DNA from: Leptolyngbya sp. BL0902
GTDB lineage: Bacteria; Cyanobacteriota; Cyanobacteriia; Phormidesmidales; Phormidesmidaceae
Assembly (NCBI RefSeq): GCF_016403105.1
Contig: NZ_CP046155.1
Coordinates: 496,001-560,000 of the forward strand
DNA: 64,000 bases
Direction: 5' to 3'
In this document: in pieces, positions 15,901 through 24,676 of the stretch
Layout: each line of letters starts with the position of its first letter
Numbering within the stretch: the stretch's first letter is position 1
Notes under the pieces: generated by a model
The model's input: only the letters and a program-made list of their open reading frames with translations
What the model was told of the DNA's origin: nothing
Database searches by the model: none
Position numbers and translations under genes: made by a program

Positions 15901-18423
15901 CTAGTACCCAACAATTAGCCCCCACAGGCTGATGCCGTAGACGAGGGTGCAGCCCTGCTGGCCCCAGCGAGACAGACCTGCCTGACGATGGAGCTTACCC
16001 GTCAGCCCTAGGGAGAGGATAACCCCTAGCAGTAGCGTCACGCCCTGGAGAAAGGCCACCACCGCTGGATCGGCGATCCAAAAGGGCCAGGGAACATCTG
16101 TGAGGCCCAGGGTGTCGCCCAGCACAGGCAGGACTCGTCCGCCCTCTAGCAAGCCCAACCGCAGATAGTGGGCGAGATTGGCGGCCCACACTAGGGGCAA
16201 ATAGCCATAGGCCAGTCTAATAAAAGATCGCGCTGCCAGGGTGGGATAGCGCCACCGCAGCAGACGGTACAGCCCCTCTAGGGCGAGGGGGAGCCCAGCG
16301 GGCAGGGTCAGCAGCAGCATCGACACAAGGCTGTGCCCAGCCAGGGTATCCACAGGCAGGGCAATGCCCCACTGGGTTTGAATTTCGGGCAGACGGTGGA
16401 GATAAACCGCCCCCAACAGCAAAAACATCAGCGCGACTTCGTAGGAACGGGGCTGGTGGGTGGTCCACAGTTCAATGCCGGGGGGGCGCAAGTTGAACTC
16501 CACCGAGCGGTGGGGGCAGGCTTTTAGGCAGGTCATACACAGCACGCAATCGCGGTTGTCCTCCAGTTGGGCCGGGTGGGAATAGAGGGGGCAGCCGAGG
16601 GTGTCCTGGCCTTCTCCCTTGGCGGGGCCACCTTTGTAGCATTGATAGGTGGTGCATTCCGCCGAGCAAATGCCCTGCTGGGCGCGAAGTTCCGTCATGG
16701 AGAGCTTGGCGAAAAGGCCGTTCATACCGCCGATGGGGCAGAGGTAGCGACACCAAAAACGGCGTTCAAACAGGGCGGAGAAGATCATGGCCCCGGCGGT
16801 AATCAGCAGCAGCAGGCAGGCGGAGAGGTAGGCGGTGTCTTCCAAGTCCCAGACCTCTTCCCAGACCAAGATCAGGGCAAAGAGGCCAAACATGAACCAG
16901 CCGCCCCAGCGATCTGCCGCCTGTCGGGGCCAGCGTTTGCTTAAGCCCGGAAACCACTGTTGAGTCAGCGTTTGGGTGACTTCGCCGTAGATCATAAACG
17001 GGCACACCGAACACCACAGCCGTCCCACGAACGGAAAGCCCAGCAAAATCAGGGGCCACCACCAGGCCCAAAACACCGTGAGGGCGGCGTTGTGCTGCCG
17101 TGCCTGGGGGCCAAGGCACAGAACGCCCACCACCACCGCAAACAGCGTTAGGGTGAGGCCGTAGTTGATGCGATTGGGCCACCAGGGGCTGCGTAGAAAG
17201 CGCCGCAGTTGGGGATAGCGGTTGAGCAGGTTCAGCCGCAGCAGGCGTTTTTTCCCTTGGTTGGGCCAGATCAGTTCTTCGGTGATGGTGTCGCCAGAGA
17301 CCCGTTGGGAGGCGGCCCGTTCCACCAGGCTTTGGAGTTCCCGCAGGTTGTTGGGGAAGTCGTAGGCTTGGAGCCGTCGCAGGGCTTCGGGGGCCAGGGT
17401 GAGCCGCGCTTGCCGCCGCCGCCGACACCACAGGGCCAGGTAGTAGTTCACCCAGTCGTCGATGTCGGCTTTGCGTACCCGCAGGGGGGGCACCTTGATG
17501 CGGTGGGCTACCCGATTATCCAGTGCCGCTACCGCCTGTTCAGAAATCAGGATAATTCGGGCGTTGGAAACCTGCATCGGCACCGTTTCCCCCTCGCGGC
17601 TGACGGGCTGGTACTGCCCGGTTTGCATCAGCCGCGCCACGGGTTCCCGCAAATCTGGATCCAGTTCCCCCGGATTACTGAGTACCAGGGTGCCTTCCCC
17701 CAAGGCTGCCAGCAGTCCCGGCTTTCCCCCCGCTCGTCCAAACAAATCTGCCCCGCTGGCCTGAAGTTGGCTGCAATCCACCTGCACCATGGGGGTACGC
17801 CGCTGGCTAGATCCATAGTGAACCAGGGCGGCGAGGTTGTCCTTTTCTAGGCCCGGTTCGCCAAAAATCAGCACGGGTTGACGATCCGCTGCGGCCTCGC
17901 GCAGTTGGCCCCGCAGCCGATCTGCATAGCGACTGCGGCCCACCACCCCTCGGCTGGCCCGCGTCACCAGGTAGGGGCGCAAAATGGCCTGTCGTTCTTG
18001 CTCGTAGCTGAACTGAAAGGAGAGCCGCCGCACCGCCTCTACCAGTTGCCGGGTGAAGGTTTGCAGAATATCTGGGTAGTCCTGCACTAACCGCTGGAAC
18101 TGGTCTCGCTCGACAAACCAGAGGGTGCTTTCGGTGAGGGTTTGCACCGTTTGCGCCACGGGCTGATTGAGTAAGAGTGCCTCCAGATTCAGCACCGCAC
18201 CGGGCAAAAAACTGATGCCCCCCACGCCAGTTTCCAAGGTTTCTAGTTTGCCCTGCCACAGCAAATACAAACCCTCTGGGGGCTGTTCCGCTGTGACCAC
18301 GGCCCGATGGGCGGGCAGGGTTATCACCTGAAGGCAGCGGGCGATTTCGGCCAGGGTGGCCGGGGGGAGCAGGCCGAGGGGGGTGCGCTCCTGCAAAAAG
18401 GCAAGGCGGTCGGATACAGTCAT
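15901..18423 (-). CDS. cNMP-binding / AAA+ / membrane polyferredoxin fusion protein
   Basis: An 840-residue fusion. Residues ~15-130 are a cyclic-nucleotide-binding-like beta roll. Residues ~155-385 resemble the AAA+ core of sigma-54 activators (KVPPLRVRKADIDDW, YDFPNNLRELQSLVERA). However, the P-loop reads GEPGLEKDN, the Walker B region reads GTLVLSNPGE, and the GAFTGA loop is missing. From ~410 come hydrophobic helices with Fe-S motifs as in NapH/NosR: CSVCP, CRYLCPIGG, CSAECTTYQC and CVLCMTCLKACP. No DNA-binding domain ends the protein. It is likely a membrane redox protein gated by a regulatory head. A 29-residue membrane peptide is divergently encoded 39 bases away. Confidence 0.75.
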   Translation of the reverse strand: MTVSDRLAFLQERTPLGLLPPATLAEIARCLQVITLPAHRAVVTAEQPPEGLYLLWQGKLETLETGVGGISFLPGAVLNLEALLLNQPVAQTVQTLTESTLWFVERDQFQRLVQDYPDILQTFTRQLVEAVRRLSFQFSYEQERQAILRPYLVTRASRGVVGRSRYADRLRGQLREAAADRQPVLIFGEPGLEKDNLAALVHYGSSQRRTPMVQVDCSQLQASGADLFGRAGGKPGLLAALGEGTLVLSNPGELDPDLREPVARLMQTGQYQPVSREGETVPMQVSNARIILISEQAVAALDNRVAHRIKVPPLRVRKADIDDWVNYYLALWCRRRRQARLTLAPEALRRLQAYDFPNNLRELQSLVERAASQRVSGDTITEELIWPNQGKKRLLRLNLLNRYPQLRRFLRSPWWPNRINYGLTLTLFAVVVGVLCLGPQARQHNAALTVFWAWWWPLILLGFPFVGRLWCSVCPFMIYGEVTQTLTQQWFPGLSKRWPRQAADRWGGWFMFGLFALILVWEEVWDLEDTAYLSACLLLLITAGAMIFSALFERRFWCRYLCPIGGMNGLFAKLSMTELRAQQGICSAECTTYQCYKGGPAKGEGQDTLGCPLYSHPAQLEDNRDCVLCMTCLKACPHRSVEFNLRPPGIELWTTHQPRSYEVALMFLLLGAVYLHRLPEIQTQWGIALPVDTLAGHSLVSMLLLTLPAGLPLALEGLYRLLRWRYPTLAARSFIRLAYGYLPLVWAANLAHYLRLGLLEGGRVLPVLGDTLGLTDVPWPFWIADPAVVAFLQGVTLLLGVILSLGLTGKLHRQAGLSRWGQQGCTLVYGISLWGLIVGY

Positions 18424-18462
18424 AACAGCTATCGCGTCATCGAGACACCGGAGGTTAGCCCC

Positions 18463-18552
18463 ATGATGACTGGAAATGCGCTCTGGGTGCCCCTGGCATT
18501 ACTCAGCTTAATCATCATCGCCGCTGTTTACTTTTGGCGGGTGGAGGCCTAG
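18463..18552 (+). CDS. 29-residue single-span membrane peptide
   Basis: ATG 18463 is preceded by GGAGG at 18450-18454 (8-base spacing). The product reads MMTGNALWVPLALLSLIIIA followed by a short tail, VYFWRVEA: one membrane helix and a charged C-terminus. It resembles in form, but not in sequence that I recognise, the tiny subunits of photosynthetic complexes (PetL, PetN, PsbM and so on). It is divergent from the fusion gene (39 bases between starts) and its last 4 bases overlap the converging D,D-peptidase gene. Confidence 0.5.
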   Translation: MMTGNALWVPLALLSLIIIAAVYFWRVEA

Positions 18553-21193: not shown

Positions 21194-24100
21194 CTAGGCT
21201 ACCGTCGTTCTCACAATCACATCGTTGAAGTCGCGGTCGCCGCCGCCCCAGGTGTCTTCGTAGCCCAACGTATTTTGGCCCAGCAGCCGCACATGGCTTT
21301 GGCGGTCGCCATTGGCCGCGACGTGGTTAAAGAACACCCTGGGGTCATTCCCAGGATTAGTATCCAACAGGGCCGACACGGGGCCACCTACCACCAGGAA
21401 TGTACTGAGCAGTTGGTTGGTGGCCAAGGTGGCGGTGACGGTGGTTGTGCGGTCATTGCGACCCACCAAGTCGCCCACCGCCCGATTCGCTAAGGCCGCC
21501 TGTAGATAGCCTGCCCCACCGGGTTGAATCAACGTTCCGGTCAGGGGATCGCGTACCCGGCCCTGGGTATCTTCTACACGGTAGAAGCCAACGGTGTTAT
21601 TGAAGGTAGACGCCTGAGTCATCTGGAATCTGAGGGTGAGGGTGGATGAGCTTTGGCCCCTGAGATCCAGGAGTCCGCCTGGGGTGGCTAGGGTGGGGGC
21701 GAGGCTGTCGGCACTGCTGCTGAGGGTGAGGCTGGAACGGGCGGCAATTAGAGGACTGACGGCGCGGGTGGGGGCACTGGTGACGCTCTCCCGCCGTCCA
21801 AAGCCATCGGTATAGCTGGCGGTAACGGTCATGGCCCTGCCTACTTGGGCCTGGGTGAGGGTAAATGTGCTACTGGTGGCTCCCCGGATGGCGGTTCCGT
21901 CGGCCCGCCACTGGTAGGAAATGGGGCCGAGGCCATCGCGGTCGGCCAGGGTGTTGCTGGCGGTGAGAATTTGGCCCTGGGTGGCGGTGCCGCTGATGCG
22001 TACCGTTCCCGTGGGGGCATCGTTGATATTAACGACGGCGCGGGTGGGGGCACTAGTGACGCTCTCCCGCCGTCCAAAGCCATCGGTGTAGCTGGCGGTA
22101 ACGGTCATGGCCCTGCCTACTTGGGCTTGGGTGAGGGTGAATGTGCGATTGGTGGCTCCCCGGATGGCGGTTCCGTCGGCCCGCCACTGGTAAGAAATGG
22201 GGCCGAGGCCATCGCGGTCGGCCAGGGTGTTGCTGGCGGTGAGGATTTGGCCCTGGGTGGCGGTGCCGCTGATGCGTACCGTTCCCGTGGGGGCATCGTT
22301 GATATTGACGACGGCGCGGGTGGGGGCACTAGTGACGCTCTCCCGCCGTCCAAAGCCATCGGTGTAGCTGGCGGTAACGGTCATGGCCCTGCCTACTTGG
22401 GCTTGGGTGAGGGTGAATGTGCGATTGGTGGCTCCCCGGATGGCGGTTCCGTCGGCCCGCCACTGGTAGGAAATGGGGCCGAGGCCATCGCGGTCGGCGA
22501 GGGTGTTGCTGGCGGTGAGGGTTTGGCCCTGGGTGGCGGTGCCGCTAATCCGTACCGTTCCCGTGGGGGCATCGTTGACGGGAGTGACATTAAAGGTCAC
22601 GGTGCCCGGTGTCGCGCTCAGAAACTGGCCATCGCTAACTTGAAACTGAAAGCTGGCGTAGGCCAAGCCGTTGGCATCAGCGGCGGGTCTGAACTTCAGT
22701 TGGTTGAGGTTGGCCACGGCAATGTCTTGATTTTCGGTAATCAACTCGCCAGCATTGACCTGGTTGTCGTTGTTAGCATCGAGGAACAGTTGCCCAGCGG
22801 TGGGTAGTTGGGTCACACGAATCCCTTGCAATGTATCGCTTGTATCGGCATCGGCAAAGGGGAACAGATGACTGGCAAAGGTGAACACCGTGTCTTCATT
22901 GAGGGTCAGGGTGACGTTGCCTGTGGTTGGTGGGCTGTCGTTGTCGGCGATGGTGATTGTCTGGCTGATGCTATTGCCCAGCATAAGACCCGTGGAGGGG
23001 TTGTTGAGGGTAAGAATCGCTGTTTCGGTGCCCTCAGGAATGGCATCGTCGATGACGGTGAACGTGATAGAACCTGCGGTAGCTCCGTCGGCGATGGTAA
23101 TGATGCCGTTATTGCTCAGGCCGTAGTCCTCGGTGGTGATACCCGTGCCGGAGACCCCAACGGCTACGGTCTGGTTGCCTGTAACAGCACTGGAAGCCGT
23201 AGCCGTAACGGTAATTTCTGTGGTTCCGGCTTCGCTACCTGTGGTAGCCGAGACAGACAGGTTAACCGCAGGCGGGTCAGCAATGGTTAGCGTTGCGGAA
23301 CCCCCAGAGGTGGAGGCAATGACAACCTGGTTGCCGGAACGCAGCGAGGTAGCAAAGTCGATGTGGCCATCCCCATTGAAGTCGCCCAGGGCAATGGCGT
23401 TGGGTTCATTGTCTAAGGCTAGCCTGATGTTGCCTGAGAATCCGCCCAGTCCATCCCCCAGGTACACCCTCAAACTGGTGTCGGACGAATGACGATTAGC
23501 CGTGACAAAATCAAGGTGGCCATCGCCGTTAAAATCGCCGACTGCCACCGAGATGGGCGATGTACCAACGGCTACATCGGTGGTGCCAGAGAAGCCCCCT
23601 GCGCCATCTCCCAGGCGGATAGAAACGGTACTAGTCCCGTTGTTGGCCACGGCCAAATCGAGGTGGCCATCGCCATTAAAGTCGCCCAGCGCCACCGACT
23701 GAGGCCGGAACCCCGTCAACACAGTATCCGCAGCGGAGAAGCCCCCTGTGCCATCCCCCAGGCGAATGGCAACACCACCGAGGCCGAAGCTAGCCACGGC
23801 CAAGTCGAGGTGGCCATCGCCATTAAAATCGCCCATCGCCACCGACTGAGGCCCGGCACCAACGCCGACCGCCGTCGCCACAGTGGAGAAGCCCCCTGCC
23901 CCATTCCCTAGGTGAACCAGGAGGTCGCTGCTGCCACTCGTGTTGAGGGTGACAAAATCGAGATTCCCATCGCCATTTAAGTCGCCGACCGCCAAAAACT
24001 CAGGAGTTGAGCCGACGGCTGCATTGGGAGCGGCGAGAAATTCGCCTAATCCGTTGCCCAATCTGACCGCAACACTATTAATATTGCTGCCGAGATTGCC

Positions 24101-24676
24101 ACTATGAGCCGTGATGAAATCAAGATTGCCATCGCCATTGAAGTCACCAACCGCCACAAAACGGGCAGCCACACCACCACTAGGTAGATTGGTACTGCCC
24201 GAAAATCCCCCTAAGCCATCCCCCAGGCGCAGGGAAACCGTATTGTTCAAGCTAACCGTGATGAGATCGAGATTGCCATCGCCGTTGAAGTCACCCACGG
24301 CCACCGAGATAGGGAAAGCATCCACAGTGGCCGACCCCAGGGTCGTCAGGGAGGGAAGGATGGTGTAGCCAGTCCCCGAAGCAAGGGTCAATCGCACGGT
24401 TTCGTCAGGGTCAGCCAGACCGTCATTGATGGCATTAACCAGCAGGGTGGCTGTGGTTTGCCCCGCAGCAATGGTAAAGCTGCCGCCCGTGACGGCGGTA
24501 ATATTCGTACCTGCGATCAGGGTGTAGTCCACCAAGTTAGTGGCGGTGCCAGCCAGACCATAGTTGACCGTTAGACCACCGACGGGGGCAGGGCCATCTA
24601 GGGTGATGGTATAGAGCCCTTGGGTGATGCCCTCAATGGGATTGGTTCCGGCTGTGATGCTGATCTTGATGGTCAT
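21194..24676 (-). CDS. Large surface/secreted protein: Calx-beta, FG-GAP, tandem Ig-like repeats, DUF4114
   Basis: A 1160-residue protein in this order: Calx-beta (1-110); FG-GAP/VCBS units with Ca-binding loops such as GDFNGDGHLDLAVA (about 120-470); a second Calx-beta (~475-580); a cadherin-like VTLTLNEDT module (~585-700); three near-identical 92-residue repeats starting APTGTVRISGTATQGQ; and a C-terminal DUF4114 domain ending GYEDTWGGGDRDFNDVIV. There is no N-terminal signal; cyanobacterial proteins of this build often leave by type I secretion. Likely an adhesin or S-layer-associated protein. Confidence 0.85.
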   Translation of the reverse strand: MTIKISITAGTNPIEGITQGLYTITLDGPAPVGGLTVNYGLAGTATNLVDYTLIAGTNITAVTGGSFTIAAGQTTATLLVNAINDGLADPDETVRLTLASGTGYTILPSLTTLGSATVDAFPISVAVGDFNGDGNLDLITVSLNNTVSLRLGDGLGGFSGSTNLPSGGVAARFVAVGDFNGDGNLDFITAHSGNLGSNINSVAVRLGNGLGEFLAAPNAAVGSTPEFLAVGDLNGDGNLDFVTLNTSGSSDLLVHLGNGAGGFSTVATAVGVGAGPQSVAMGDFNGDGHLDLAVASFGLGGVAIRLGDGTGGFSAADTVLTGFRPQSVALGDFNGDGHLDLAVANNGTSTVSIRLGDGAGGFSGTTDVAVGTSPISVAVGDFNGDGHLDFVTANRHSSDTSLRVYLGDGLGGFSGNIRLALDNEPNAIALGDFNGDGHIDFATSLRSGNQVVIASTSGGSATLTIADPPAVNLSVSATTGSEAGTTEITVTATASSAVTGNQTVAVGVSGTGITTEDYGLSNNGIITIADGATAGSITFTVIDDAIPEGTETAILTLNNPSTGLMLGNSISQTITIADNDSPPTTGNVTLTLNEDTVFTFASHLFPFADADTSDTLQGIRVTQLPTAGQLFLDANNDNQVNAGELITENQDIAVANLNQLKFRPAADANGLAYASFQFQVSDGQFLSATPGTVTFNVTPVNDAPTGTVRISGTATQGQTLTASNTLADRDGLGPISYQWRADGTAIRGATNRTFTLTQAQVGRAMTVTASYTDGFGRRESVTSAPTRAVVNINDAPTGTVRISGTATQGQILTASNTLADRDGLGPISYQWRADGTAIRGATNRTFTLTQAQVGRAMTVTASYTDGFGRRESVTSAPTRAVVNINDAPTGTVRISGTATQGQILTASNTLADRDGLGPISYQWRADGTAIRGATSSTFTLTQAQVGRAMTVTASYTDGFGRRESVTSAPTRAVSPLIAARSSLTLSSSADSLAPTLATPGGLLDLRGQSSSTLTLRFQMTQASTFNNTVGFYRVEDTQGRVRDPLTGTLIQPGGAGYLQAALANRAVGDLVGRNDRTTTVTATLATNQLLSTFLVVGGPVSALLDTNPGNDPRVFFNHVAANGDRQSHVRLLGQNTLGYEDTWGGGDRDFNDVIVRTTVA
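21762..22575 (-). repeat. Three coding tandem repeats, period 276 bp
   Basis: Units begin at 21762, 22038 and 22314, exactly 276 bases (92 codons) apart, and differ at only a few positions. The repeat next to DUF4114 differs most (SST in place of NRT). Confidence 0.9.

Follow-up and report, generated by a model that had tools for sequence, protein, structure and literature searches.

A conserved cyanobacterial NapH/NosR-like membrane protein with a putative pseudo-ATPase of the sigma-54-activator type and a candidate microprotein partner

Gene and domain organisation

The window, by which we mean the whole stretch of 64,000 nucleotides of Leptolyngbya sp. BL0902 that was analysed (NZ_CP046155.1, positions 496,001 to 560,000), contains on its minus strand a single open reading frame of 840 amino acids (15901-18423, ATG to TAG), lying exactly where the original prediction had placed it. 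The encoded protein exceeds the curated Pfam cut-offs for cNMP_binding (aa 35-116, E 4e-11, 43 bits against a cut-off of 27.5), Sigma54_activat (aa 161-296, 1.6e-11), AAA_lid_14 (aa 315-386, 9e-11) and the Fer4_5 membrane Fe-S segments (8e-8). NCBIfam models reveal a similarity to NapH (TIGR02163, 2e-13, about 50-52 bits versus a cut-off of 213; a second NapH model, 44 versus 234) and, far under the cut-off, a NorR/NifA-like similarity of the AAA part. An AlphaFold2 model of the 840-aa protein, for which 55 homologues served as input, reached a mean pLDDT of 85.5. Neither a DNA-binding helix-turn-helix (HTH) or known output domain nor an FMN-binding domain was found by Pfam anywhere in the protein. 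The large parts that had been read from the DNA alone are all present: the cNMP-type beta roll (Pfam, together with the strands of the AlphaFold2 model), the AAA+ domain of the bacterial enhancer-binding protein (bEBP) type (Sigma54_activat and AAA_lid_14, together with an NtrC1-like fold detected by Foldseek) and the NapH-like membrane helices, although the NapH score of the latter stays far under the curated cut-off. The features of the locus are the following (window coordinates, with the basis of each assignment in brackets):

15901..18423, minus strand: whole gene, 840 aa (open reading frame, homologues, AlphaFold2 model)
18034..18372, minus strand: CRP/cNMP-type beta roll, aa 18-130, cassette Arg (V89) and Glu (L80) absent (Pfam, MlotiK1 alignment, column counts)
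17524..17952, minus strand: sigma-54-activator-type AAA+ core, aa 158-300, putative pseudo-ATPase (Pfam, Foldseek to NtrC1, motif counts)
17836..17865, minus strand: altered Walker A FGEPGLEKDN, aa 187-196, K194 invariant, G193 replaced by Glu (motif counts)
17671..17694, minus strand: former Walker B GTLVLSNP, aa 244-251, Asp-Glu replaced (motif counts)
17254..17496, minus strand: AAA+ lid, aa 310-390, conserved PPLRVRKxDI and YDFPxN.xEL...R (Pfam AAA_lid_14)
16771..17184, minus strand: four NapH/NosR-type membrane helices, aa 414-551 (hydropathy, models, NapH similarity)
16999..17013, minus strand: CX2CP, C471-C474-P, at the cytosolic end of helix 2 as predicted (invariant)
16735..16752, minus strand: CX3CP, C558-C562-P, at the cytosolic end of helix 4 as predicted (cysteines invariant)
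16513..16668, minus strand: two four-Cys sets, C586/C590/C595/C611 and C626/C629/C632/C636, likely two cytosolic [4Fe-4S] clusters (invariance; Fer4-type matches weak, below cut-off)
15913..16446, minus strand: C-terminal membrane helices, aa 660-837, five helices beyond the NapH-type module (models)
18463..18552, plus strand: divergent 29-aa single-helix microprotein MMTGNALWVPLALLSLIIIAAVYFWRVEA, candidate partner (coding signal, linkage; GGAGG ribosome site at 18450-18454)

Elsewhere in the window, the minus strand encodes a protein of 1160 aa (21194-24676) of the FG-GAP/Calx-beta/Ig-like kind, the tandem domains of which are nearly identical and which ends in a DUF4114 domain.

Relatives and family structure

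A match to the protein, mostly over its full length, was obtained in 49 of 59 relatives. By hand count, about 105 of the 386 sampled genomes of the phylum carry a strong match, all of them within the class of the window, and a scan across GTDB, with one genome for each species, returned 499 relatives, the best 80 of which are all cyanobacterial; no non-cyanobacterial homologue with an intact AAA part together with the Fe-S part stood among these best 80 of 499 loci. Because of this wide spread across the class, we regard the gene as a member of an old family and not as a one-strain chimera; the family is ancient and strongly conserved in Cyanobacteria. As to the observations that the original prediction had named beforehand as speaking against it, homologues with an intact P-loop do exist, GAFTGA was seen in none of those examined, and a recent chimera confined to a single strain is ruled out by the homologues found throughout the phylum.

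The phylogenetic tree, the root of which it does not infer, splits the family with full support into two groups. Group A comprises the window type (50-90% identity), while group B is paralogous, shows approx. 40% identity and consists of proteins of ca. 900-970 aa. Group B shares the domain order and the 12 motif cysteines with the window protein; it differs from group A in having kept the P-loop glycine, in its cysK neighbourhood, in occurring also on plasmids and in that the divergent microprotein was not found with it. A stand-alone version of the membrane Fe-S module, with all 12 cysteines kept, is present on a plasmid of Deinococcus ficus (L139, 7935-9290), where it is preceded by a 308-aa protein without Pfam match.

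A conserved putative pseudo-ATPase

The AAA part of the model resembles NtrC1 (3m0e; Foldseek E 4e-12, TM 0.84 normalised to the target), and the fold of core and lid is shared with the bEBPs NtrC1, PspF and NifA. In contrast to these, the window protein lacks Walker B, GAFTGA, the arginine-finger segment and the HTH, and is fused to membrane Fe-S helices. Its P-loop, GEPGLEK, retains G188, G191 and K194, with Glu in place of G193, and deviates from the consensus GxxGxGK. The group A proteins have FGEPGLEKDN or a near variant at this site, with Lys194 in 111 of 111 and with Glu (95), Gly (14) or Gln (2) at residue 193; the glycine at this position is kept in all 21 group B proteins. The Asp-Glu of Walker B reads Ser-Asn in the window protein, and Asn is found at position 249 in 105 and at position 250 in 110 of the 111 group A members. 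The arginine-finger segment is shortened in comparison to NifA, columns 302-308 not being conserved, and the GAFTGA loop is absent from every homologue examined, including group B, which combines a near-canonical P-loop (glycine and lysine kept) with the loss of both the Walker B Glu and GAFTGA. The claim that P-loop, Walker B and GAFTGA were all lost therefore stands for the latter two, whereas the P-loop is merely altered, its K194 being invariant.

Calculated against five relatives, dN/dS amounts to about 0.07-0.19 in the AAA core, 0.08-0.27 in the lid and 0.04-0.11 in the Fe-S part. Since the AAA+ part is under purifying selection and its predicted fold is intact and NtrC1-like, it was wrongly described as decayed, and a degenerating pseudodomain is ruled out by the same two observations (dN/dS about 0.1; intact predicted fold). 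Judged by these sequence data, the AAA+ part is a conserved pseudo-ATPase, which is probably non-hydrolysing and could still bind a nucleotide through the P-loop lysine, itself invariant. That same lysine, as well as the near-canonical P-loop of group B, could be taken to indicate an active AAA+ ATPase or even a transcription activator of the sigma-54 type; with the Walker B Asp-Glu, GAFTGA and the arginine-finger segment missing, no HTH in the protein and no sigma-54 in the genome, we find this scarcely credible.

The absence of sigma-54 from cyanobacteria, presupposed by the original prediction, is borne out: its DNA-binding domain (PF04552) has no match in the strain's own genome and exceeds the cut-off in only 2 of 244 genomes of the phylum, in agreement with the report that sigma-54 and its activators are missing from all 29 cyanobacteria examined (PMC3162934). 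One cyanobacterial genome contains a strong match to this domain within a 207-aa frame (G169:C1:411956-412339, minus strand, E 2e-16), which may be an acquired fragment or contamination. That bEBPs can cease to work with sigma-54 has precedents in the GAFTGA-less TyrR, DhaR, HupR and VpsR, and bEBPs without GAFTGA that work with sigma-70 have been named (PMC3162934); these four, however, are DNA-binding transcription regulators, whereas the window protein is a predicted membrane redox protein without HTH. In another class of the phylum, proteins with two sigma-54 activator domains in tandem, their P-loops and Walker B motifs intact, were encountered (L142, 1752-3731; L143, 1090-3126; L144, 2754-5087); considered as intact relatives, they were rejected as ordinary regulators without Fe-S parts.

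The CRP-like roll

The roll shares its beta-roll fold with the cNMP domains of CRP/FNR proteins and CNG channels, and the closest solved structure is the cAMP-binding domain of MlotiK1, to which it aligns without gaps over the cassette. The cassette Arg of MlotiK1, i.e. the residue differing in 3clp and 3co2, corresponds to Val89 and the cassette Glu to Leu80 in the window protein. Unlike in the cNMP domains, the Arg is absent in all relatives counted and the Glu in nearly all, and no HTH follows: position 89 is never Arg in 132 homologues (V, A, T, S, P or I in the 111 group A and Y or H in the 21 group B proteins), and position 80 is Leu in 106 of the 111 group A and Tyr in 20 of the 21 group B proteins. 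Moreover, the whole cNMP roll is absent in the marine-type members with small genomes, in some other group A members and in one group B member. A frame-shifted cNMP remnant was looked for upstream of the short versions and not found, ruling out a hidden cNMP domain there.

Cyclic-nucleotide sensing, as first proposed, is thus unsupported because the cassette Arg (in 132 of 132 homologues) and Glu are missing and because the domain was lost several times. On these residues the roll is probably not a canonical cyclic-nucleotide sensor, and non-canonical ligands are possible. A putative orthologue of the gene is slr0593 of Synechocystis. The latter is annotated as 'cAMP binding membrane protein', and its level was approx. 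2.5-fold lower early in iron starvation (PMC3516471). A cAMP- or cGMP-gated redox protein would be in line with this annotation, with the Pfam cNMP_binding match above cut-off and with the cAMP domain of MlotiK1 as the closest solved roll; given the replacement of both cassette residues and the absence of the domain in several lineages, we hold it to be very unlikely. What remains of the proposal that a regulator was repurposed into a ligand-gated redox membrane protein is the takeover of a sigma-54-activator AAA+ part, without the gating by cyclic nucleotides.

The membrane redox part

The NapH/NosR/RdhC module is known to consist of four helices with two CX3CP motifs, and quinol oxidation has been proposed for it (PMC5928378). 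The window protein has in common with it the four helices with two Cys-Pro motifs and, as in NapH and NosR, C-terminal Cys sets; it differs in the first motif, which is CX2CP, in the first soluble set, C-x3-C-x4-C-x15-C, and in its extra C-terminal helices. The FMN domain of NosR and RdhC was not found in the window protein, the scores of which lie far under the NapH cut-offs, and the fold search yielded no solved structure matching the membrane module (best E 0.85). The Cys motifs are CX2CP (471/474), CX3CP (558/562), C-x3-C-x4-C-x15-C (586-611) and CX2CX2CX3CP (626-636). The earlier count of at least four Cys-rich Fe-S motifs is therefore right as regards four invariant Cys groups, of which only the last is of the canonical CX2CX2CX3CP form.

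All 12 motif cysteines are invariant in 55 aligned homologues, covering both groups as well as versions without the cNMP domain, and they are also kept in the stand-alone Deinococcus relative at 31% identity. With its dN/dS of 0.04-0.11, the Fe-S/membrane part is the most constrained region of the protein. Because none of the 12 motif cysteines varies, we regard the membrane redox part, as far as sequence conservation can tell, as the functional core. Its two invariant four-Cys sets likely carry two [4Fe-4S] clusters on the cytosolic side; the AlphaFold2 pLDDT falls below 50 at residues 583-605, so that little confidence can be placed in the Fe-S region of the model and the cluster geometry is only predicted. 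The positively charged side is that of the AAA part and the Fe-S sets, and, to judge from the arrangement of helices and charges, the front half and every Cys set face the same, presumably cytosolic, side. A haem b at H676/H752 in the C-terminal helices was considered and rejected: across the two main groups H752 does not vary, but its invariance is lost once the marine short forms are added to the alignment.

A divergent microprotein and two genomic settings

The 29-aa open reading frame listed above, which would encode a membrane microprotein, is read divergently from the gene, their start codons being 39 bases apart, and has a strong ribosome site; it is unannotated and has no match in Pfam or NCBIfam. 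The consensus of 35 such sequences is MxxxxxLWVPLALLGLIxLAAIFFSRxx. The frame is under coding constraint (pN 0.20 versus pS 0.75, pS exceeding pN in every pair). Of 80 named group A loci, 44 have it in divergent orientation no more than 300 bases from the gene and 3 at a greater distance upstream; in about 40% of the named relatives it was not found beside the gene. Matches with E < 1e-10 in genome-wide searches mostly adjoin a group A gene, and in one genome (G112) both of the two group A genes are accompanied by a microprotein of their own; beside group B genes none was seen. Probably the microprotein acts as a small subunit or regulator in one complex with the large protein, to which it would presumably bind.

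Conservation of the larger neighbours of the group A gene stops at the genus boundary, and no gene for an electron partner was found adjoining group A loci. In nearly all members of the genus group to which the window belongs, a coiled-coil protein of about 310 aa is encoded downstream of the group A gene (L003-L022, a cluster of 37 loci); it was not found downstream in the window itself.

The 21 group B loci present a different picture: cysK adjoins in 13, a rhodanese gene is nearby in 9, and petC (6), DUF3365 (5) and psbA (4) recur, whereas cysK, rhodanese or petC were found in the flanks of none of 90 group A loci. In Pseudanabaena and Aulosira, group B occurs on plasmids together with psbA and petC copies; the Pseudanabaena plasmid additionally encodes DsrE, a rhodanese, a regulator of the ArsR type and a flavoprotein akin to sulfide:quinone reductases (SQR). 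Plasmid islands of a sulfur/low-oxygen kind (L195, 6943-24077; L196, 10145-22409) contain group B along with cysK, petC and psbA copies, to which L195 adds DsrE, a rhodanese and, accompanied by ArsR, an SQR-like flavoprotein; group B is annotated there as 'nitrogen assimilation regulatory protein' or as cNMP-binding protein. In PCC 7002, polysulfide raises the transcripts of psbA, petC, rhodanese and cysK2 (PMC12466478), and the setting of group B, that of a sulfide/polysulfide island, fits this response. Groups A and B have the machine in common and differ in the setting.

An assembly or maturation factor, as argued for NosR, may be considered at this point, the electrons then being spent on the reduction of a metal site or disulfide while photosynthetic or respiratory complexes are built. 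Relatives of the membrane module do act in maturation, namely NosR in that of NosZ (PMC5928378), and group B adjoins copies of petC and psbA; group A, however, is without petC-type neighbours, and Pfam detects no FMN domain, which leaves this role rather improbable.

Proposed function

Our preferred reading, tentatively held, is a cyanobacterial membrane redox protein of the NapH/NosR type, with electron transfer on the quinone/ferredoxin side, a regulatory pseudo-AAA scaffold and a microprotein partner. Electrons would be passed between a cytosolic donor or acceptor, most naturally ferredoxin, and either the quinone pool or a partner in the membrane, the link to quinol being modelled on the proposal for NapH; we infer the occupancy of the Fe-S sites, the donor and the acceptor alike. 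The pseudo-AAA half could serve as a platform for oligomerisation, docking or nucleotide-dependent gating, the CRP-like roll might be an optional extra input for a ligand other than a canonical cyclic nucleotide, and the 29-aa microprotein would act as a small subunit or regulator within the complex. A more far-reaching version, in which the protein and the microprotein form a phylum-specific electron-transfer complex, the former sigma-54 activator provides nucleotide-sensing or oligomerising control and the paralogue has a related task in the sulfide response, is possible, if doubtful as a whole.

The same parts could instead make up a redox sensor, with the Fe-S sites and helices sensing the quinone, oxygen or sulfur state and the pseudo-AAA/CRP half relaying it to a protein partner. 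Such a role would account for a front half that derives from two regulator families, is under selection and has no catalytic output of its own, and it would suit the condition-specific islands of group B. Yet Pfam detects neither a DNA-binding domain nor any known output domain, conservation is far higher in the redox part, which occurs by itself in Deinococcus, than in the front half, and the CRP-like part is dispensable; we consider signalling as the main function unlikely. This role and that in maturation are the rivals to be reckoned with.

Returning to the electron-transfer reading, a former gene switch has probably been rebuilt as a control part for membrane electron transfer. Literature searches on the family and the microprotein yielded no biochemical work, only an expression table for slr0593. 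Labels such as 'cAMP-binding' or 'nitrogen assimilation regulatory' are best avoided for these proteins. The microprotein and the paralogue of the sulfide islands offer two direct experimental handles. The family represents a rare case of a transcription-activator ATPase that lacks the catalytic features and is nevertheless strongly selected inside a predicted membrane redox protein, and, being unstudied in the literature found and widespread in Cyanobacteria, it may involve an unrecognised component of their electron-transfer network.
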